IMG/VR virus record: IMGVR_UViG_3300009098_000016
Coordinates: 1 to 36,715 of that record
Length of the DNA: 36,715 nt
Reading direction: 5' to 3' (one strand)
Source of the DNA: a virus
In this document: positions 1,681 to 35,909 of the stretch, piece by piece
Layout of the letters: each line of letters begins with the position of its first letter
Numbering within the stretch: the stretch's first letter is position 1
The notes under the pieces: generated by a model
What the model was told of the DNA's origin: nothing
Seen by the model: the letters and a program-made list of their open reading frames with translations, nothing else
Database searches by the model: none
Position numbers and translations under genes: made by a program

Positions 1681-1728
1681 GGTTCCGCGATTAGCGGGAG
1701 GCTGCCGGATCGAATCCGGCCGGAACCG
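1681..1728 (+). ncRNA. Miniature tRNA-like element A (acceptor plus T arm only)
   Basis: A perfect 7-bp acceptor stem (GGTTCCG 1681-1687 with CGGAACC 1721-1727) encloses a 16-nt linker and a perfect T arm, GCCGG-ATCGAAT-CCGGC (1704-1720). There is no anticodon arm; the linker contains GCGGGAG, resembling a D loop. A related copy lies at 6630-6678, with the acceptor pairs changed but still complementary. It sits 39 nt upstream of the start codon at 1768. Possible roles are an RNase P cleavage site in the leader or a tRNA mimic. Confidence 0.6.
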
Positions 1729-1767
1729 CTCTGTAATCAATCAAGTCTAGCGCGAAGGATGATCGGT

Positions 1768-1911
1768 ATGACGTTCTGTTACTCCACCTACATATCCGTC
1801 GACACATTACGTTCCGAGTGTTGTGACGCGGAGGTCACTCGCACTGTTGACGGTAACGGTGCGTGTGAGTGCGACACGTGCGGCAACCTTTGTTTCGTTT
1901 ACGAGATCTAG
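1768..1911 (+). CDS. 47-aa zinc-ribbon microprotein
   Basis: ATG at 1768 has AAGGA 8 nt upstream; the frame ends at TAG 1909-1911. The peptide has seven cysteines, including an ECC, a CEC and a DTCGNLC group, arranged as two knuckles, so a compact zinc-binding fold is likely. It is the first gene after tRNA-like element A. Its codon use (GGT, CGT, GTA-type third positions) matches the following rightward genes. Function unknown; DNA-binding or host-takeover microproteins often look like this. Confidence 0.6.
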   Translation: MTFCYSTYISVDTLRSECCDAEVTRTVDGNGACECDTCGNLCFVYEI

Positions 1912-1924
1912 GGAGTTATGGATC

Positions 1925-2119
1925 ATGAGTCAATCAATGACGAACCTATGTGGTCGCGACCTAGGCGACGGTACGCGATGCGACAACGTTAACGGACCTT
2001 GGCACTGTGGTCCGTGCGGTAACGGCCCGTGGGTGGTGACCGTGGGTACCAGCGCAGCGGTTAAGCAGCTGGACGCGGTGTTGCGTACAGCGCTGGAAAC
2101 GATCAGGCCATGCGACTAG
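1925..2119 (+). CDS. Small cysteine-rich protein
   Basis: A 64-aa protein. ATG at 1925 is preferred because GGGAG lies about 10 nt upstream and the preceding gene ends at 1911. The N-terminal half has cysteines spaced as C-x9-C and then WHCGPCG, again a zinc-ribbon layout; the C-terminal half is a short predicted helix. Its last bases overlap the start of the secreted-protein gene at 2110, indicating co-translation. No function recognised. Confidence 0.6.
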   Translation: MSQSMTNLCGRDLGDGTRCDNVNGPWHCGPCGNGPWVVTVGTSAAVKQLDAVLRTALETIRPCD

Positions 2120-2658
2120 CTCACCGGGTGTGGCTTGGTGTCGCAGCGGCGGTGATGGTGGCCGGCATCGCGCATGCCGAGTTGGCGGGGCCGCCGCAGC
2201 ACGCGGTTACGCCGGTGCAGGTGATAGCAGCACCGGCACCGGCTGAGGCTTACCTGTGTGCCGTGCGGTGCCCCGGTTATGTGGAGCCCGCGGACGGGCC
2301 GACCACGATGGCTGAGGCACGGGCGATGGCTGAGGCGCAGCGCGCGGACGCCGGGTACTGGACGGCCCATAAGGGCGTGGGTGTGGTGCCACCTAACGGC
2401 CCGGTGATCGTGACCCAGTACGTACCGGTACCGGCGGCTGGTCAGCAGGCCACGGTGCAGCCAAAGGCGAGCAAGGCGACCAGCACGCGGGCTACTGCGC
2501 AACCTAAGGCAGCGAAAGCGCCTAAGGCACCCGCGGCATCTAAGGCGCCGAAGCAGGCGCAGCCGAGCACGACGGTGACGTCGAAGCAGTCCACTCGAAC
2601 TACCGCTACGGGCACCGTGACGGTGACTAACAGCACGACCACAACCACGAAGGGTTAA
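2110..2658 (+). CDS. Exported Ala/Lys/Thr-rich protein
   Basis: A 182-aa protein with a clear signal peptide: basic MRLAHR, a hydrophobic stretch and AHA before the likely cut near residue 24. The middle part has two cysteines (CAVRC). From about residue 115 it is low-complexity, with repeated KA, PKA, SKAP and then Thr/Ser runs ending TTTTTKG. Such tails are found on surface-exposed, often glycosylated actinobacterial proteins. It overlaps the preceding gene by 10 bp. It may act at the lysogen's surface, for example in superinfection exclusion, but this is inference. Confidence 0.65.
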   Translation: MRLAHRVWLGVAAAVMVAGIAHAELAGPPQHAVTPVQVIAAPAPAEAYLCAVRCPGYVEPADGPTTMAEARAMAEAQRADAGYWTAHKGVGVVPPNGPVIVTQYVPVPAAGQQATVQPKASKATSTRATAQPKAAKAPKAPAASKAPKQAQPSTTVTSKQSTRTTATGTVTVTNSTTTTTKG

Positions 2659-2660
2659 CC

Positions 2661-2837
2661 ATGCCTGACATGACGAATAACCAGGTGATTGCGCTTAGCA
2701 ACCTCTGCGAGCGGTACGGGGTCGACTTCGATCCGGCTAACTTCCTGCCCCGCTTCGACCTACCTGCTGGGTATGTGGCCGGATGGGTCGGGACGTTGTA
2801 TGTGGGGTGTGATCCGGATGGCGCGATCTCCTCTTGA
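2661..2837 (+). CDS. 58-aa hypothetical protein
   Basis: ATG 2661 follows AAGGG by about 6 nt and begins 2 nt after the previous stop. The protein is acidic with a YGVDFDPANFLP segment and a hydrophobic, Gly-rich C-terminal half. No known motif. It overlaps the next small gene by 20 bp. Confidence 0.55.
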   Translation: MPDMTNNQVIALSNLCERYGVDFDPANFLPRFDLPAGYVAGWVGTLYVGCDPDGAISS

Positions 2838-2955
2838 CCCGTATTGCCGTACGTGCGGGCTACTGCACCATCCGTTTGAGCGGCTCGAATCGATTGTGGC
2901 GGCGTGCCTTAACGGTGTGTTCGCTGCGGGTACGTGGCTTACCCACGCTAAGTGA
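2818..2955 (+). CDS. 45-aa hypothetical protein with CxxC-HH motif
   Basis: ATG 2818 has GGGG about 10 nt upstream; a GTG at 2809 is an alternative start. The N-terminus carries CRTC followed by HH a few residues later, and one further cysteine lies near residue 30, so metal binding is possible. It overlaps the preceding gene by 20 bp, as is common in this block. Function unknown. Confidence 0.45.
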   Translation: MARSPLDPYCRTCGLLHHPFERLESIVAACLNGVFAAGTWLTHAK

Positions 2956-3036
2956 CCTAGCTAGTTCCCAGCTGTCCGATGGGGCGGACGGTTGGATTGC
3001 CTGCTATGGCAACTACAGCGCGAAAGGAAACGAGGC

Positions 3037-3357
3037 ATGCAAGCATATATGAAGGTGGTAGATAGCGGGTGGGCACCACCTACGTTCATCGTTACGCGGT
3101 TCGATGACGCTATCAAGTATCACGTGATGATAGGTGGCTCGAACGTCGGTAGCGTGATGCGTTATCACGCGGACAATTGGTACGCGACTCCGGACGATTG
3201 CACGGGCGGACCGTGCTCTGCTGACGCCGCCCGCTATAGGTGGGCTGGTGGGTTCCGTACACGTCGTGAGGCTGTAGCGCACCTACGGGGGCATGCAAAC
3301 GCCGGTAGCGCGTGGTGGGCCGAAGCGGCATCACCGGAATGGCAGGCACGGCCATGA
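3037..3357 (+). CDS. 106-aa hypothetical protein
   Basis: Start at ATG 3037, with AAGGA 9 nt upstream inside the motif AGCGCGAAAGGA shared with other leaders of this block. The middle of the protein alternates beta-like stretches (FIVTRF, YHVMIGGSNVGSVMRY); the C-terminus has RTRREAVAHLRGH, probably a helix. It resembles a small alpha/beta domain with a closing helix, but no family is recognised. Its TGA overlaps the next ATG (ATGA at 3354). Confidence 0.6.
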   Translation: MQAYMKVVDSGWAPPTFIVTRFDDAIKYHVMIGGSNVGSVMRYHADNWYATPDDCTGGPCSADAARYRWAGGFRTRREAVAHLRGHANAGSAWWAEAASPEWQARP

Positions 3358-3575
3358 GGACGACTGTCCGCGCTGGCCTAGCCGCTGTGCTGGCCGCTGG
3401 CATTGCCGCCACGGGGCTGTTCACGGGCGCGGTGCACGTGTACGGCCTGGACGCGCACTCGTTGAACTACGGGGTCACGGCTAGCGGGTACGGGTTCGAG
3501 ATTCAGGGTGTCGACGGCCCCGGGTGGTTCCACTGCGGGCACAGCGTCGGCCCGATACCAGGAACGGACTGCTGA
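3354..3575 (+). CDS. Small exported protein
   Basis: A 73-aa protein starting in the ATGA overlap at 3354. A hydrophobic Ala/Gly-rich segment at residues 5-25 after MRTTVR is a signal peptide or membrane anchor. The exported part contains SLNYG, QGVDGP and two cysteines (FHCGHS and the terminal DC), which could form a disulfide. Similar SLNYG/GVNGP motifs occur in the leftward frame at 917-1180. Confidence 0.55.
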   Translation: MRTTVRAGLAAVLAAGIAATGLFTGAVHVYGLDAHSLNYGVTASGYGFEIQGVDGPGWFHCGHSVGPIPGTDC

Positions 3576-3577
3576 CG

Positions 3578-3940
3578 ATGAAAACAGATGAGGCCCGCGC
3601 GATGGGTATGGCTTACGTGTGGGGCCGCCAGGATGCGGGCGAAAGTGAACGTGACACCGGGTTCAGTATCCACTTTGGTGAGGCGTACGCGTTGCGGGCT
3701 GAGGCTTACAACACGGAGCGCACGTGGTCGATGATCCCGCTGCAGTCCGCGTGGGATGAGTGGCAAGCGACGAAGTGTCTCACGTACAAAACCCGCGACG
3801 GGTACCGGGAGATCGGTTTAGGGCATCCGGAAGGGCACCCTAGCGACCTACGGGTTATCGAGACGGTGTCCGCTGGCCCTGAATTCTGGGAACGCCCCGA
3901 ATACACACGCAGGGCCGGTCCGACCCGCGTAACGCTGTAA
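3578..3940 (+). CDS. 120-aa hypothetical protein
   Basis: ATG 3578 starts 2 nt after the preceding stop, with AGGAACGGA upstream. The N-terminal half is helical and rich in aromatic residues (MGMAYVWGRQDAGE, FGEAYALRAEAY, WDEWQ). This resembles small phage proteins of the type that carry an AYxxGRxDA motif, but no function is established. The C-terminus is polar with several Arg and Pro. It lies directly before the ATPase gene, probably in the same transcript. Confidence 0.6.
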   Translation: MKTDEARAMGMAYVWGRQDAGESERDTGFSIHFGEAYALRAEAYNTERTWSMIPLQSAWDEWQATKCLTYKTRDGYREIGLGHPEGHPSDLRVIETVSAGPEFWERPEYTRRAGPTRVTL

Positions 3941-3970
3941 CGCGTAATGCGGAATGTGAAGGGAGGAACG

Positions 3971-5104
3971 GTGAGTACGCAGGTACAAACGGTAACGACG
4001 ATTGAGCGTCCGTTACAGGATGTGACCAGTCAAGCACTTGACGCGGTACAGGGCGAATTCGACAAATATCTAGTGTTCCCGTCGCCTGAGGCACGGGACG
4101 CTGTTGTTCTGTGGACGTTGCACACGTACGTGTTCGATCAGTTCGGTTCGACACCGCGGTTGTCTATCCGGAGTACGGGGCCGGGTAGCGGTAAGTCCCG
4201 GGTGCTGGAGCTGATCGCGGAACTGGCACCTAAGGCGGTGTCCGCGGTGTATTTAGAGCCCGCTGTGATGTGGCGGTTGATTAACGCGGGTGCACCGACG
4301 CTGTTGCTAGATGAGTGCGACACGGTTTTCGGTAAGGCCGGTAGCGGGACGTCGCACGTTGGGTTGCGGTCCATTATCAACGCTGGGCACCGTGCGGGTT
4401 CGACGGTACCTAGGTGTGTTGGCAGTGAGGACGTTAAGGAATTCCGGGTGTTTTCACCGGTCGCGCTGGCGGGTATCGGGCGGCTACCGGACACGATCGC
4501 CACGCGGTCTGTGGAGATCGTGATGCGCAAACGGCGTGACGGTGACCCGGTCGTTAAGCCGTTCCGGTTGAAGTTGGCCGGTGACAGTCTGAAAGTCACG
4601 GCCGGTCTACTCAGCTTCTGGGCTACCCGGGCGGCGTTGCCGTTGTCCGTGGCGATGCCGGACCTACCGGTCGAAGACCGCGCGGCCGACGTGTGGGAAC
4701 CGCTGGTAGCGATAGCGGACCTAGCGGGCCCCGTGTGGGCCGCTAGGGCACGGGCGGCGTGTACCCGGCTGGTAGCTGAGGCCAGTAGCCGACCGGTCGC
4801 GAGTGTCGGTGTCCGGTTGCTGACGGATATCCGGGCGGTGTTCGACACGGAGGTACTGGTACCAGCGGACCTAATCCAGCGGCTGCACGGGGTCCCTGAA
4901 AGCCCATGGGAGGGCGGTCAGTTCACTAGCCGCCAGATGGCACGGGTGCTAGCGGAGTACGGCGTGCGGGCCACCACGGCGCGGGTAGCGGGCACCCCGT
5001 GCCGCGCGTACCTACGTGACGCGTTCACCGCGGCGTGGGCGATGTACCTGCCAGCGGAACGCGTCGCAGAGCAGGCGCAAGTCGAAGCAGAGGCAGTGAT
5101 CTAG
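3971..5104 (+). CDS. DUF3631-type P-loop ATPase
   Basis: A 377-aa protein. GTG 3971 is chosen because GGGAGG lies 5 nt upstream; the frame also opens at 3947 with no ribosome site. Walker A is GPGSGKS at residues 70-76 and Walker B is LLLDECD at 111-117, followed by VALAGIG and a TRS(V) arginine segment. This layout is typical of DUF3631 proteins, the ATPase part of mobile-element primase/helicase-like proteins. A substrate-free primase domain is not seen here, so it may work as a stand-alone helicase-like factor. Upstream and downstream genes are closely packed and co-directional. Confidence 0.75.
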   Translation: MSTQVQTVTTIERPLQDVTSQALDAVQGEFDKYLVFPSPEARDAVVLWTLHTYVFDQFGSTPRLSIRSTGPGSGKSRVLELIAELAPKAVSAVYLEPAVMWRLINAGAPTLLLDECDTVFGKAGSGTSHVGLRSIINAGHRAGSTVPRCVGSEDVKEFRVFSPVALAGIGRLPDTIATRSVEIVMRKRRDGDPVVKPFRLKLAGDSLKVTAGLLSFWATRAALPLSVAMPDLPVEDRAADVWEPLVAIADLAGPVWAARARAACTRLVAEASSRPVASVGVRLLTDIRAVFDTEVLVPADLIQRLHGVPESPWEGGQFTSRQMARVLAEYGVRATTARVAGTPCRAYLRDAFTAAWAMYLPAERVAEQAQVEAEAVI

Positions 5105-5107
5105 ACG

Positions 5108-5129
5108 GGGTGCGCTATCCGGCGCACCC
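5108..5129 (+). promoter_or_regulatory. 8-bp leader hairpin
   Basis: A perfect stem, GGGTGCGC (5108-5115) and GCGCACCC (5122-5129), with a 6-nt loop, begins 4 nt after the ATPase gene stop and 29 nt before the next start. There is no T-run, so it is not a typical terminator. It may protect or separate the messages. Confidence 0.4.
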
Positions 5130-5157
5130 ACAACAGCGCGAAACGAAGGGCAGTGCA

Positions 5158-5367
5158 ATGCGTGGCATAGTAGGAATTATGGCTATCGGTATGGCGGCCA
5201 TATACACGATAGGTTTGGCCATATACGCGATAGCTTCGGCGCTTCACCACTGGTATGTGACGGTGCCCGCTGTGATCGTGATCACGGTACTCGTGCTGCA
5301 CTACCAGTCTAAACAGCGCAAGCCGCCGGCGAATACATCACAAGCCCGCTGGTCGAATCGGCGATAA
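5158..5367 (+). CDS. Small membrane protein with two helices
   Basis: A 69-aa protein from ATG 5158, with GAAGGG about 8 nt upstream. Two hydrophobic segments cover residues about 4-27 and 33-50, separated by HHWY, followed by a basic, polar tail (QSKQRKPP..RWSNRR) probably in the cytoplasm. No family recognised; a small holin-like or anchoring protein cannot be told apart by eye. Confidence 0.6.
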   Translation: MRGIVGIMAIGMAAIYTIGLAIYAIASALHHWYVTVPAVIVITVLVLHYQSKQRKPPANTSQARWSNRR

Positions 5368-5389
5368 CGGCAGGACGGTCGGGGACGGC

Positions 5390-5569
5390 ATGACTAGACG
5401 ACGGATATGCGCCCGTGAGGGTTGCACCAACGAGATCCCACTACGGGTCGATAGGCGGACCGGGCAAACGGTCCCACCCAACGAGGACAAACAATTCTGT
5501 TCACCGCGTTGCCGTAAAGCTGACTGGCGGAAACGGCAACGCGACGGACCGGCGAAAGAAAAGGACTGA
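5390..5569 (+). CDS. 59-aa zinc-finger protein
   Basis: ATG 5390 with GGGGACGG directly upstream. Cysteines are arranged CAREGC near the N-terminus and FCSPRCRKADWRKRQR in the second half. The FCSxxCRKAxWRxRQ pattern is widespread in small actinobacterial and phage zinc fingers that probably bind nucleic acid. The protein is strongly basic. It lies between a membrane protein and the DUF932 gene in the same direction. Confidence 0.6.
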   Translation: MTRRRICAREGCTNEIPLRVDRRTGQTVPPNEDKQFCSPRCRKADWRKRQRDGPAKEKD

Positions 5570-5574
5570 TCACA

Positions 5575-6624
5575 ATGTCGCAGGAAACACTGAACTGGTT
5601 GAACACGCACGTGCTAGTCGGTATGACGGACGCGCGTGGCAACGCGTGGCATTACCGGGCAAGTGAGCAAGGCGCCGAGTCGAACCATTACGCGGGTGCG
5701 ATCCCGATTGAGGATGTTAACCGGCGGTTATTCGGTTGGGATGCTGTGCCTAGGCGCGTCGGTGTTGAGCTGCCCGCCACGTTCGACGACATGACCCACA
5801 TATCCGACGACGGCCTACCGATGCGGTGGACGGTGCAGGATGACCGCCAGGCCATCACGGCGTCGGATAGCGGGCACGTGTTCGAATTCTTCAAAGACGG
5901 TTACCGGTCCCACCAGTACCAGGAGTGGTTACTGCGCAACGTGGGCACGATTCTCGATGGTGACCTAGGTATTAGCTCCGCTGGGTTGCTCCGTAACCGT
6001 GGCGTGGCGTGGGTCGAGGTCTCCGTGCCCGACACTATCCAGGGGCCCGCTGGTGTGGCATTCAGGCCCAATCTGGTGGGGTGTACGTCGCACGACGGGA
6101 AGCTGTCGACCACGTATAAGCGCACGATCACCGCGACGGTGTGCGACAACACCCTGGCCGCTGCGCTGGGTGAGCACGGTCAGACAGTGAAAGTGAAGCA
6201 CTCACGTTATTCAGGGTTGCGGATCACTGACGCGCGGGTAGCGCTGGCCATGGTGGACGAAACGGCGGACGCGTTCTCCGCGCAGGTGAGGCGACTCACC
6301 GATTGGAAGGTAGGACCGCTACAGCTCAAGACGGTGATTAACGCTCTCGTGCCTGTGCCTGATGAGTCCGGGAGGGCACAAACGATCGCCCAGACTAAGC
6401 AGGCCGACATTCGTAAGCTACTGGCCACTGACCTGCGTGTGCAGCCATGGGCCGGTACAGCGTTTGGTGTGCTCCAAGCGTTCAACACGTGGGAGCACCA
6501 TATTAAGGGCACCCGTGGTGGGGAAGGTGGCCGGGCGGAACGCAACATGCTGTCAGCACTGGACGGCAGCACTGACAAATCTGACGCGCTAGTCCTTAGC
6601 GTGTTGGCGGCTACAAACGTTTAG
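5575..6624 (+). CDS. DUF932 / TIGR03299 phage/plasmid-like protein
   Basis: A 349-aa protein from ATG 5575. Its layout fits the DUF932 family: N-terminal MSQETLNWLN; a central segment with FRPNLVGCTSHDGKLSTTYKR, where family members read the nominal TS.DGS-type core; a CDNTL motif; and a C-terminal NTWEHHIKG plus RAERNML segment. Members are found on actinobacterial phages and plasmids near replication or transfer genes; the biochemical role is unknown. It follows the zinc-finger gene by 5 nt and is followed directly by tRNA-like element B. Confidence 0.78.
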   Translation: MSQETLNWLNTHVLVGMTDARGNAWHYRASEQGAESNHYAGAIPIEDVNRRLFGWDAVPRRVGVELPATFDDMTHISDDGLPMRWTVQDDRQAITASDSGHVFEFFKDGYRSHQYQEWLLRNVGTILDGDLGISSAGLLRNRGVAWVEVSVPDTIQGPAGVAFRPNLVGCTSHDGKLSTTYKRTITATVCDNTLAAALGEHGQTVKVKHSRYSGLRITDARVALAMVDETADAFSAQVRRLTDWKVGPLQLKTVINALVPVPDESGRAQTIAQTKQADIRKLLATDLRVQPWAGTAFGVLQAFNTWEHHIKGTRGGEGGRAERNMLSALDGSTDKSDALVLSVLAATNV

Positions 6625-6629
6625 CAGTG

Positions 6630-6678
6630 GGCCCCTGAACATGGCGTGAGGCTACCGGATCGAATCCGGCCGGGGTCA
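6630..6678 (+). ncRNA. Miniature tRNA-like element B (acceptor plus T arm only)
   Basis: It starts 6 nt after the DUF932 stop. GGCCCC (6630-6635) pairs with GGGGTC (6672-6677), including one G-T pair, around a 17-nt linker and a T arm of CCGG-ATCGAAT-CCGG with an A-C mismatch at its base. The linker shares GCG(G/T)GAGGCT with element A, and the T arm is almost identical. Two acceptor pairs are T-A in A and C-G in B, a compensatory change. The gene at 6718 begins 39 nt downstream. Confidence 0.6.
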
Positions 6679-6717
6679 CTCTTTCGTTTCACCGATCTAG
6701 CGCAGGAGAAAGTAATC

Positions 6718-6936
6718 ATGGATGAGCAAACGCATCTAGACGGGTTCAGGGTCGGCGACCGAGTAAGGCTATCGCCCCTCGCAAAAGTGGATTTGCGCGA
6801 CACGGGTGCATGGGTGCAAGACGCTAGCGGAATCGGACTAGTGATCGAATCACCGACGAAACATTGCTATGTCGAGGTGCAATGGAAGTACGGAACCGCT
6901 GCCTACCGGCCTGAACACTTAGAAAGGGTAAAGTGA
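6718..6936 (+). CDS. SH3-like small protein
   Basis: A 72-aa protein from ATG 6718, with AGGAGAAAG upstream. GDRVRLSP near residue 12, GIGLVIES and EVQW..YRPEHLERVK give the strand pattern of a small SH3/KOW-like barrel, as in many phage and ribosome-associated proteins that bind nucleic acid. Its leader matches that of the gene at 1768 (tRNA-like fold, then TCTAGCGC, then AGGA), which suggests common control. Ends in a GTGA overlap with the next gene. Confidence 0.6.
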   Translation: MDEQTHLDGFRVGDRVRLSPLAKVDLRDTGAWVQDASGIGLVIESPTKHCYVEVQWKYGTAAYRPEHLERVK

Positions 6937-7460: not shown

Positions 7461-8132
7461 GTGCCCTGGCACCGGAGCCGCTGAGTGCCACGGTGAGGCT
7501 AGATCTTTCCGGGTGGCTATGGTCGCATGACCTGGACCGACTTAATCCCGCAGCGTGCATTGTGCGGCCAGCACTGCGGGATTTGGCCGTGAGGCGTGCC
7601 GTGCGTGCCGTCAGCCGCGACCGGCTGATCAGCGGAAAGTAGTCGGTCGGTCGCTCAGCGTGGGTTTGCGATCGTGAACGTTTGCGGGTGCAAAGTGACG
7701 GACCGTGTCGATCTTGGAACTCTCCGTGACTAGGCCATTCGGCCTAAGATCAACTGGCATTTGGTCTAGTCGTGTGTCGATCTTGTGACGCGGAGCGACT
7801 GGGCCAAACGGCCTAAGGTCAACGATCTTGGTGTGTGGTCAAGATCGTTGATCTTGCCTCGCGCGTGCAAATTGCATGTGTGTGCACACCGTGACCGGCC
7901 GTCACGCGCAGTAGAGCTAGGGCGTTTGGCCTAAGATCCACATCGCATTCGGCCTATCGGCATTCAGCCTAAGGTCAACTCGCATTCGGAGTAGTCACTG
8001 GCCGTGTCGATCTTGGGACGCAGGGTTACTAGGCCATCCAGGTGAAGATCAACGATCTTGGGAGGCAAGATCGACGATCAAGCCCTCGCGCGTGCAGATT
8101 GCACGTGTGTGTGTATACACGTATTAAGTCCG
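7461..8132. repeat. Repeat-rich non-coding region (candidate origin, partition or end site)
   Basis: No coding frame is credible over 670 bp. GTGTCGATCTTG occurs at 7705, 7774 and 8004. The motif (A/G)GCCTAAG(A/G)TC occurs at 7741, 7810, 7928 and 7966. Inverted pairs are AACGATCTTG/CAAGATCGTT (7821-7830/7840-7849) and CGATCTTG/CAAGATCG (8053-8060/8066-8073). A 27-bp element starting CTCGCGCGTGCA occurs at 7858 and 8085. Genes converge on this region, so ordinary promoter arrays are unlikely. Protein binding for replication, partition or packaging is the likely use. Confidence 0.7.
7544..7583. terminator. 10-bp inverted repeat, possible backup terminator
   Basis: AATCCCGCAG (7544-7553) and CTGCGGGATT (7574-7583) are perfectly complementary with a 20-nt loop. 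The stem resembles that of the terminator 130 bp upstream. There is no long T-run, so it is a weak terminator at best, or a structural element of the repeat region. Confidence 0.45.
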
Positions 8133-9551: not shown

Positions 9552-9827
9552 TGCGGCGTAGCTCAGTGCGTAGAGCGCTCGGTGCATGGCAAGCGAACGG
9601 TTCCGGTACCAACCCGCTTGTGGTGGGCCGGGAGCTGCATCCAGCGCCGTCCGCGGCGACCCATCGCCGCAGCCGCCTCGGGATCGGCAAGCAGGGTCGC
9701 TACGGCTTCGAGTTACCGCCGCTACCTCACGACCGTTGACCAACTCGCTGCGATGACCAGCGGACCCAGAGTATGCCCCGGTTCTCTGACCGGCGGGAGG
9801 ACGCAGGTTCAACTCCTGCCGCCGCAG
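9552..9827 (+). tRNA. tRNA split by an insert of about 200 nt (possible intron-containing or broken tRNA)
   Basis: The 5' half (9552-9583) has acceptor TGCGGCG, TA, and D arm GCTC-AGTGCGTA-GAGC. The 3' half (9789-9827) has a T arm GCAGG-TTCAACT-CCTGC and acceptor CGCCGCA, an exact 7-bp match, followed by G73 and then CTTTTT. TCGGT (9579-9583) can pair with ACCGG (9789-9793) as the anticodon stem. The anticodon is uncertain; U1-A72 with G73 recalls tRNA-Gln. The insert lacks a clear group I core. Confidence 0.4.
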
Positions 9828-9832
9828 CTTTT

Positions 9833-34557: not shown

Positions 34558-34776
34558 CTACGAACGCCCTCGAATCGCCGGGTCGTCAGGCGGGTGCTCG
34601 TTTTCCCAGACTGTCGGGTCTCCGCCCAGCGCTACCCAGACCCGCTTCTGATCTTCACGGGAACGCGCACCTCTGAGTCCAGACATCCAGCGTTGCTCCG
34701 CCGGGACGAGCCGCAGCGGCTCGGGATTGATCACAAGTCGCCGAACAGCTTGATCATCGTCCATGTCAGGGATCAT
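34558..34776 (-). CDS. 72-aa protein coupled to the integrase gene
   Basis: ATG 34776 overlaps the integrase stop (ATGA). Acidic start (MIPDMDDD), central basic helix (RWMSGLRGARSREDQKRVW). Too small and without an HTH to call an excisionase; directly downstream of int, so perhaps a helper. Confidence 0.5.
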   Translation of the reverse strand: MIPDMDDDQAVRRLVINPEPLRLVPAEQRWMSGLRGARSREDQKRVWVALGGDPTVWENEHPPDDPAIRGRS

Positions 34777-35879
34777 CCTAGGTTCGCTTGTGAATCACTA
34801 GGCCCGAACGCATGATTGACTACAGCGGCTAGGCGTCCTGCTCCAGCGTGGCGCACATAACCCATCGTGGTCTCGATGTTGCGGTGCCCGAGGATCTCCA
34901 TGATCTCAAACGGATTGGCGCCTGCCTCGGCCAGGATGGTGGCGCAACCGTGGCGCAAGTCATGCCAGGTGGGTTTTTCGCCGTCGATCGCAGCCAGTTT
35001 CAGTGCGCGATCCCACTCGTCACGGATCCTGGTCGGGCGTAGGTGCTGACCAGTGCGCGGGTTGGCGAACACAGGGGCGAGTTTGCCTGCCACCGCCTGG
35101 TCGCGGACGTGGTGATCTAGCGCTGCGACAACACGAGGACTCAGCGGCACATTGCGGATGGTTTTGGATTTAGGGTAACGCCGCAAACGGCCATCAACGT
35201 CGATGATGTCGATGACTGTGACCTTGCTGTGGAGCAGGTTGAGGTTACACATCCGCAGTCCGCAGATCTCGCTGATGCGTAGTCCTGCGTCGTGGCTAAG
35301 TAGCGCTGCTGGCCACAGCCATCCGGGCAACGCGGCCAGCAGTAACATCAACTCCTCGTCGGTGAGGATCCGGGGCTGGTGCTCGTGCGGCTTCGGACCC
35401 TTGATCCCGAGGGTGGGGTCGTCGGGGCGGTAGCCAGCTTTGATCGCGGCGCGCATGGCGTGGCGCAGCACCGTCAGGCGCACGGTGCGGGTGCCGGTGC
35501 CTTTGCCGTCGTCACGCAGCTCGGCGAGGTAACCGCGGACCATGATCTCGGTGATCTCGTCGACGCGCTCAGTCGACCAACGTGCGGCCAGCGCCCGGGC
35601 GTGGCCCTGGTAGCCACACCGGGTGGACAGCTCGGCGTCGAGGACGCCGAGCTGCGCCCACCCGGTGACGTGCTCAGCGAAGCTGGGGATGCCTCGCCGC
35701 TGGCGGGCAACGTCGATCCCAGCGGTGGTGTAGCTGGAGTCCTCATCGCGTTCTTCTTGTTTCCACCACGCGTCGGCGTCGGACCAGCGGATGAACGTCT
35801 TGCTCCAGCGGCGCCCGGTGATCGCGTTGCGGGCAACGCCGCGATGGTTACCGGACGGCAAACTTTCTACCCAACCCAT
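34773..35879 (-). CDS. int: Tyrosine integrase
   Basis: A 368-aa protein; ATG 35879 with GAGAGG upstream. A small N-terminal arm-binding part, a SAM-like core-binding domain (about 65-155), then the catalytic domain: R201 in DAGLRISE, a Lys in the beta hairpin, HDLR (H306, R309), GHRN (H332) and Y341 in TTMGYVRH. All catalytic residues are present, so it should integrate and excise. It points away from the non-coding stretch to its right, where attP is expected. Confidence 0.92.
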   Translation of the reverse strand: MGWVESLPSGNHRGVARNAITGRRWSKTFIRWSDADAWWKQEERDEDSSYTTAGIDVARQRRGIPSFAEHVTGWAQLGVLDAELSTRCGYQGHARALAARWSTERVDEITEIMVRGYLAELRDDGKGTGTRTVRLTVLRHAMRAAIKAGYRPDDPTLGIKGPKPHEHQPRILTDEELMLLLAALPGWLWPAALLSHDAGLRISEICGLRMCNLNLLHSKVTVIDIIDVDGRLRRYPKSKTIRNVPLSPRVVAALDHHVRDQAVAGKLAPVFANPRTGQHLRPTRIRDEWDRALKLAAIDGEKPTWHDLRHGCATILAEAGANPFEIMEILGHRNIETTMGYVRHAGAGRLAAVVNHAFGPSDSQANLG

Positions 35880-35909
35880 GATCTTGGAACCTCTCGCTAC
35901 GTAGCGCAC

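Follow-up and report, generated by a model that had tools for sequence, protein, structure and literature searches.

A family of anticodon-less, tRNA-like RNA elements at gene borders in phage and bacterial genomes

A 36.7-kb virus record of IMG/VR (IMGVR_UViG_3300009098_000016, analysed here over its whole length and called the window below) carries in its plus-strand operon, at 1.7-7.4 kb, two short elements in which an acceptor-like helix is joined to a T-like arm with no anticodon arm between them. We show that these elements recur, with covarying stems, in about 150 relatives in viral contigs and Streptomyces genomes and also in the Synechococcus phages S-CBP42 (five copies) and S-CBP2 (two copies), and we regard it as practically certain that they are members of one RNA family. 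Most likely they are cis-acting, anticodon-less, tRNA-like punctuation of polycistronic phage or prophage mRNA, serving as a site for ribonuclease P (RNase P) or for mRNA stability.

Fold and relatives of the two elements

The two copies and their parts, named P1 (acceptor-like helix), P2 (mini-hairpin) and P3 (T-like arm), are the following, with scores from the covariance model (CM) described below.

1681..1727, plus strand: copy 1 (CM 40.1 bits, E 7.6e-10); P1 1681-1687/1721-1727, joint 1688-1692, P2 1693-1703, P3 1704-1708/1716-1720, loop 1709-1715 (ATCGAAT)
6631..6677, plus strand: copy 2 (CM 41.0 bits, E 4e-10); P1 6631-6637/6671-6677 (6/7 pairs), joint 6638-6642, P2 6643-6653, P3 6654-6658/6666-6670 (4/5 pairs), loop 6659-6665

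The first-pass annotation of this DNA, made from the letters alone, had proposed an acceptor stem and T arm at both places, and both are indeed present there; a model built independently of them matches each. The CM was made from 24 equal-length relatives and included no window sequence; the equal-length set was chosen because a first MAFFT alignment displaced a P1 strand where the joint varied in length. In the window this model matched only the two copies, the next best score being 9.9 bits (E 1.8), and a chance origin of the copies is excluded. In copy 1, P1 is a perfect 7-bp helix (GGTTCCG 1681-1687 with CGGAACC 1721-1727), flush with the 5-bp arm GCCGG/CCGGC and followed by G73 and C74 at 1728-1729; its fold has an energy of -23.6 kcal/mol (z -2.33), and an independent descriptor also picks it, with 1 match in the window versus 0.2 in shuffles. 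Copy 2, followed by A73 and C74 at 6678-6679, has in the register of the family one C.U and one A.C mismatch, P1 and P3 holding one mismatch each, while the earlier register starting at 6630 gives six pairs, including one G.U, and then a mismatch. By itself, the fold of copy 2 is of unremarkable stability (z -0.94); the evidence for the element is comparative and not energetic. The switches from T-A to C-G noted earlier between the copies are real (1683-1725 and 1684-1724 versus 6633-6675 and 6634-6674) and remain paired in either register, and the selection on structure read from them is borne out by double-sided pair changes across the relatives.

These relatives were gathered with several patterns. 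The seed 16-mer CCGGATCGAATCCGGC occurs in 87 viral stretches, mostly by chance, and in about 20 of them a 7-bp flush helix of different sequence and a GYGA hairpin accompany the T-like arm. When the T stem was left unconstrained, dozens of further convincing copies came up, among them a marine group. A pattern that left the loop free returned, among matches with a paired P1, ATCGAAT 45 times, ATCGGAT 8 times and ATCGACT 7 times, plus single variants, which shows U55, C56 and R57 to be almost invariant and the rest of the loop to be variable. The exact pattern GAGGCT before the T arm, which was too strict, had no match in viral contigs, and with blastn against phages copy 1 retrieved nothing beyond genuine tRNAs and some further weak matches, most of them tRNA-like. 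Three descriptor matches with odd loops (AGCGTGG, GGCGCTT and GGCGAGC) were judged to be chance and dropped. The CM found nothing in P-SSP7, Syn5, P60, SS120-1, S-SRP01, Fryberger, Trogglehumper and REQ1, and only a weak match (17.6 bits) in Madraxi.

Over the 24 sequences, 97.5% of the alignment cells are paired and double-sided changes occur at 11 of the 15 pairs; covariation scores 0.77, versus 0.20 after shuffling and 0.07-0.21 with slid partners. A further alignment (A3, 77 distinct rows), which was fitted to the CM and is hence biased towards it, gives 97.1% paired cells, 13 of 15 pairs with double-sided changes and a score of 0.72 versus 0.19. The fold predicted from these pairings is a three-way junction consisting of a 7-bp P1, a joint of usually 4-7 nt, a 3-bp P2 with the loop GYGAN and a 5-bp P3 with a 7-nt loop. 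Zero bases separate P2 from P3 and P3 from P1, such that P1 on P3 would form a 12-bp stack, and positions -1 and 73 are mostly unpaired, so that P1 stops at exactly 7 bp. The linker of 16-17 nt described earlier does lack an anticodon arm, as claimed, but it is not unpaired: it is made of the joint and of the covarying mini-hairpin P2, which is AGC-GGGAG-GCT in copy 1 and GGC-GTGAG-GCT in copy 2, whose middle pair switches from G-C to C-G among relatives, and which appears to replace both the D and the anticodon arms. P2 or the joint is enlarged in four relatives (L032:2946-2989, L068, L261:1490-1550 and L258:5546-5608), suggesting that P2 tolerates the insertion of extra hairpins.

A search of the window with all 4227 Rfam families brought only a tRNA-Pro to its gathering score, and the loci of ten relatives gave no Rfam match. 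The best sub-threshold scores for the elements were 17.9 bits for M23 (threshold 41.2) and 15.2 bits for YrlA (RF02553, E 3.3, threshold 69); the latter is a chance-level score, and the identification with Y RNA, one of the kinds to which the elements had been likened, was rejected. ARAGORN did not call the elements in the window, S-CBP42, S-CBP2, REQ1, Madraxi or the window relative L003, and with only 16 nt between P1 and P3 the window copies do not qualify as tRNA genes. In the open literature we found no description of such a family, of its fold or of its use as a repeated mark at phage gene borders. While tRNA-like structures and non-tRNA substrates of RNase P are already known, the family, its fold and its use at gene borders appear to be new.

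Placement at gene borders and carriers

The annotated features around the two copies are these.

1755..1759, plus strand: Shine-Dalgarno sequence AAGGA in the string TCTAGCGCGAAGGA (from the sequence; ATG at 1768)
1768..1911, plus strand: small Cys-rich open reading frame (ORF) 3' of copy 1 (ORF listing)
5575..6624, plus strand: DUF932 gene (PF06067, phrog_1221; Pfam E 3.6e-32, PHROGs E 1.2e-76)
6704..6708, plus strand: Shine-Dalgarno sequence AGGAG in the string TCTAGCGCAGGAG (from the sequence; ATG at 6718)
6718..6936, plus strand: 72-aa ORF 3' of copy 2 (ORF listing)

Copy 1 precedes the first small ORF of the operon and copy 2 begins 6 nt past the stop codon of the DUF932 gene; neither of the ORFs that follow has a family match in the Pfam and PHROGs searches. 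Both copies are followed by a shared CTCT, then by TCTAGCGC and an AGGA-type ribosome site. The spacing of 39 nt to the start codon, which the first-pass annotation had given for both, is exact (1729-1767 and 6679-6717) provided that the ATG at 1768, supported by a Shine-Dalgarno sequence, is the start; a second in-frame ATG lies at 1759.

Covarying homologues upstream of small phage genes, for which that annotation had proposed to look, turned out to be many, and their flanks show a consistent arrangement. Among 90 distinct viral copies, whose flank statistics are inflated by relatedness, an ORF stop lies at most 25 nt upstream in 79% on the sense strand, versus 16% on the antisense strand and 10% at random places; a Shine-Dalgarno sequence with a start 25-60 nt downstream is found in 59%, versus 7% and 7%, and the starts cluster at 31-50 nt. 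For 65 copies in bacterial genomes, subject to the same inflation, the upstream stop is present in 58% versus 14% and a close start in only 20% versus 11%, which leaves the location just past a stop codon as the feature common to both sets. The description of the elements as lying in mRNA leaders is thus right in that starts usually follow about 40 nt downstream, but it is incomplete, the tighter position being 5-15 nt past the upstream stop in most relatives. This strand-specific placement indicates an element acting on RNA and not a DNA operator, and we consider a cis role at the level of mRNA highly probable. The genes downstream share no common function.

The arrangement is clearest in the T7-like Synechococcus phage S-CBP42 (KC310805), in which all five CM matches fall in an early region of 2 kb ahead of the RNA polymerase gene: four copies stand 36-51 nt upstream of annotated starts, most begin about 10 nt past a stop, and the three P1 stems that were read are complementary with different sequences (CCACCTA/TAGGTGG, CCAGCAG/CTGCTGG and CCACTTG/CAAGTGG). 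The two copies of S-CBP2 lie 10-13 nt past stops, and in L003 (79 kb) a single copy, at 4019-4063, precedes a different gene that has a similar GATCTAGCTAAGGA string. In the cyanophage group, which includes S-CBP42 (L204), a second small hairpin (TGGCC...GGCCA or TGCC...GGCA) directly follows the element, and P1 of the marine group contains the upstream TGA stop (CTGAGT). Among bacteria, 23 of 150 Streptomyces genomes have one to three copies, often clustered. Elsewhere copies are rare: the other samples yielded 2 of 198 genomes for the actinobacterial phylum (G109, one of the two, was in the Streptomyces sample as well), 1 of 146 for cyanobacteria and 1 of 200 for the phylum of a gammaproteobacterial match, in the last two cases the centre genome itself. 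Neighbours include DUF6284 and DUF2637 proteins and small ORFs of no known family, and the patchy distribution has the look of mobile DNA.

The site after the DUF932 gene was compared in other phages. A related-locus search with the DUF932 protein gave three relatives, and one with the ATPase protein gave none. In the Rhodococcus phages REQ1 and Madraxi, an acceptor and T-arm fold lies in the corresponding gap of about 90 nt and is the only match of the descriptor in 50 kb of each (0.4-0.65 matches are expected by chance per 50 kb, at any place). Its P2 is divergent, its loops are more tRNA-like (TTCCGAGT and TGCGAGT), and ACCA and ACAA follow the stem. The same site holds plain hairpins in Trogglehumper, L003 and L005 and a terminator-like hairpin in L004. 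To some extent, then, hairpins can replace the element, and this favours a function in the processing or stability of the message over one in aminoacylation. In Mycobacterium phage Rey (L006), a lone T-arm-like sequence at 1001-1028, after a tRNA-Asn and followed by a hairpin of its own, may be a tRNA remnant.

Likeness to RNase P substrates and other explanations

Features of a tRNA are also conserved at the end of P1. Of 65 distinct non-cyanophage elements, 60 have a purine at position 73, 62 have C at position 74 (p < 1e-12 for positions 73 and 74, a value inflated by relatedness) and 53 begin with the pair G1-C72, all of these being places where RNase P contacts a tRNA, while cyanophage-type elements lack R73-C74 and have C74 in only 8 of 31. 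Bacterial RNase P RNA pairs through the GGU of its loop L15 with the RCCA end of tRNA precursors (PMC4919922), and hairpins made of acceptor and T-stem-loop are cut at the correct site by this RNA alone (PMC11143913). We compared RNase P RNAs from genomes in which the element pattern was found: L15 reads GGGU(A/G)G in those of Streptomyces, Micromonospora, Rhodococcus and a Bacteroidetes, and this motif is absent in Cyanobium. The suggestive pattern is that the 3' end of the element matches the RNase P RNA of the host, R73-C74 occurring together with GGU, while GGU is missing in Cyanobium and R73-C74 in the cyanophage elements.

A mechanism can be proposed in which the host machinery for tRNA processing, RNase P first, would recognise the P1-P3 stack and cut immediately 5' of P1, a few bases past the stop codon. 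Such a cleavage would split the message, and the downstream mRNA would start with a structured 5' end able to resist RNase E/J, with its Shine-Dalgarno sequence about 30 nt further on. As an explanation of the whole, a tRNA mimic that punctuates messages and is read by RNase P is the best we have, if somewhat short of an even chance; the part that names RNase P as the recognising enzyme is put at about the same level, from the sequences compared, and an RNase P substrate, as the first-pass annotation had suggested, is a live candidate, to be held tentatively. Its further suggestion, a special role in exposing the AGGA ribosome site, is not supported, AGGA lying outside the element. In its widest form the proposal would be that anticodon-less mini-tRNAs enable phages of Actinobacteria, Cyanobacteria and others to have their polycistronic mRNAs cut and capped by recruited RNase P of the host, possibly along with further tRNA enzymes, the 3' end of these marks being tuned to the RNase P RNA of the host; this we hold more tentatively still.

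Several observations weigh against recognition by RNase P. Outside cyanophages, C75 is present in only 15 of 65 elements, T, G or C standing at this position, and U at -1, a usual preference but not a requirement of the enzyme, is nearly absent (1 of 65). The T-loop is non-standard, position 54 being mostly A and not U and position 58 A or G, even though U55, C56 and R57 are near-invariant. The link with GGU rests on one cyanobacterial genome, many Streptomyces chromosomal copies have no nearby downstream start (20% have one), and the relatedness mentioned above inflates the flank statistics. The hairpins found at the site after the DUF932 gene also count here, since a generic stability role would suffice to explain the interchange.

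The nearest rival is accordingly a tRNA-shaped stability element or barrier read by no tRNA enzyme, which would block exonucleases or insulate cistrons and whose resemblance to tRNA would come from convergent packing. This is possible but rather doubtful. It accounts well for the alternation with plain or terminator-like hairpins in Trogglehumper, L003, L005 and L004, and for a position tied to the upstream stop even when no start is close; within the window, two other leaders carry plain hairpins before a similar Shine-Dalgarno string, as listed here.

2968..2996, plus strand: ordinary hairpin in the leader of the gene at 3037, at the equivalent position (from the fold), then the same kind of Shine-Dalgarno string, CAGCGCGAAAGGA
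5107..5129, plus strand: ordinary GC hairpin in the leader of the gene at 5158, at the equivalent position (fold z -2.29), then CAGCGCGAAACGAAGG

It leaves unexplained the invariant U55 and C56, the P2 loop GYGAN, the exact stack of 7 and 5 bp, and the conservation of R73-C74 outside the helix. Conserved loops that resemble recognition sites would be expected if a protein bound there, and the narrow start spacing (mostly 31-50 nt), together with a stop codon inside P1 in the marine group that would make folding dependent on ribosome release, would suit an operator for a tRNA-binding protein (EF-Tu, CCA enzyme or a synthetase), a ligand-free regulatory RNA or a device for translation coupling. 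Such control of downstream translation is unlikely: the downstream genes have no function in common, the chromosomal copies often lack a close start, and P1 has no G3-U70, the known signal for alanyl-tRNA synthetase (AlaRS). That the 47-nt RNA is excised and acts in trans, decoying or inhibiting tRNA enzymes or defence nucleases that cleave tRNA, is very improbable; several copies per phage and tRNA-like ends would fit, but the elements lie at gene borders and not as independent genes with promoter and terminator, and many genomes have a single copy. Two further explanations were rejected. A DNA operator, in which a repressor or other DNA-binding protein would bind inverted repeats, has in its favour the nearly palindromic CCGGAT-CGA-ATCCGG, and it is contradicted by the strand-specific placement, as P1 is free in sequence while paired, the loops are conserved on one strand and the orientation follows the genes; its probability is close to nil. 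Least probable of all are decayed tRNA genes or attachment sites derived from tRNA 3' halves, despite a 3' half like the end of a tRNA and the presence in the window of a tRNA-Pro and a split tRNA-like locus. Covariation contradicts them, double changes keeping the pairing across phyla in elements that occur several times per genome at gene borders, and an attP site would need just the 3' strand.

If read by RNase P, the elements would join the model minihelix and the natural non-tRNA substrates of this enzyme (his operon mRNA, the C4 antisense RNA of P1/P7 and phage M3 RNA), with which they share a 12-bp acceptor/T stack, G1-C72, R73, C74 and an origin in phage transcripts. They differ from these by a three-way junction with its own P2, by A54 in place of U54, by unconserved C75 and U-1 and by their repetition at gene borders, and are a candidate substrate only. 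Counterparts of the proposed cutting would be tRNA punctuation in mitochondria and, in the early mRNA of T7, the sites for RNase III. The T7 sites likewise occur as several intercistronic copies in an early region, as here in the T7-like S-CBP42, but are long double-stranded hairpins and not a compact junction. Mitochondrial tRNAs and the MALAT1 mascRNA are likewise processing marks with the fold of a tRNA or one resembling it, set between messages or at the end of one; they have an anticodon or anticodon-like arm, which is missing in the present family, and the latter is carried by phages and bacterial mobile DNA. YrlA Y RNA (RF02553) and the tRNA-like structures (TLS) of plant viruses are mimics without full tRNA function as well, but our elements have no visible Ro-binding stem and are internal in mRNA, not at its 3' end. 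The ESAS/SAS elements of cluster K mycobacteriophages are fixed-sequence DNA inverted repeats, repeated upstream of phage starts like the elements described here, which vary in sequence and keep their pairing.

That a strongly supported family missing from Rfam recurs between genes in phages whose hosts are far apart suggests a general strategy of message organisation in phages. Should it be a true RNase P mark, it would constitute a tRNA-punctuation system in prokaryotic viruses and a minimal natural substrate of this enzyme, and hosts with and without GGU would offer a natural test of the 3'-end contact. The cultured phages S-CBP42, S-CBP2, REQ1 and Madraxi make the question accessible to experiment.

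Other features of the window

DUF932 homologues occur in Rhodococcus, Gordonia, Mycobacterium and other actinophages, and this together with an integrase gene suggests that the window comes from a temperate phage of an actinobacterium.

34776..35909, minus strand: integrase

The integrase lies near the right end, and a tRNA-Pro (TGG) lies near the left one, at 633-706 on the minus strand; the latter is possibly an attachment site or a host-derived end. The 300 nt preceding copy 1 (1381-1680) are GC-rich and gene-poor, with a predicted fold of -135 kcal/mol (no shuffle test), and may be a structured leader or a non-coding RNA. Between convergent operons, at 7694-8053, there are iteron-like repeats (GTCGATCTTGG... 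and CTAGGCC-TTCGGCCTAAGATCAAC), a possible replication origin or terminator cluster. Finally, a tRNA-like locus at 9552-9829 on the plus strand, for which neither ARAGORN nor Rfam gave a call, appears to be a tRNA interrupted by about 200 nt that fit no known intron family; its 5' half is TGCGGCG-TA-GCTCAGTGCGTAGAGC and its 3' half GCGGGAGGACGCAGGTTCAACTCCTGCCGCCGCA, with a 7-bp acceptor.

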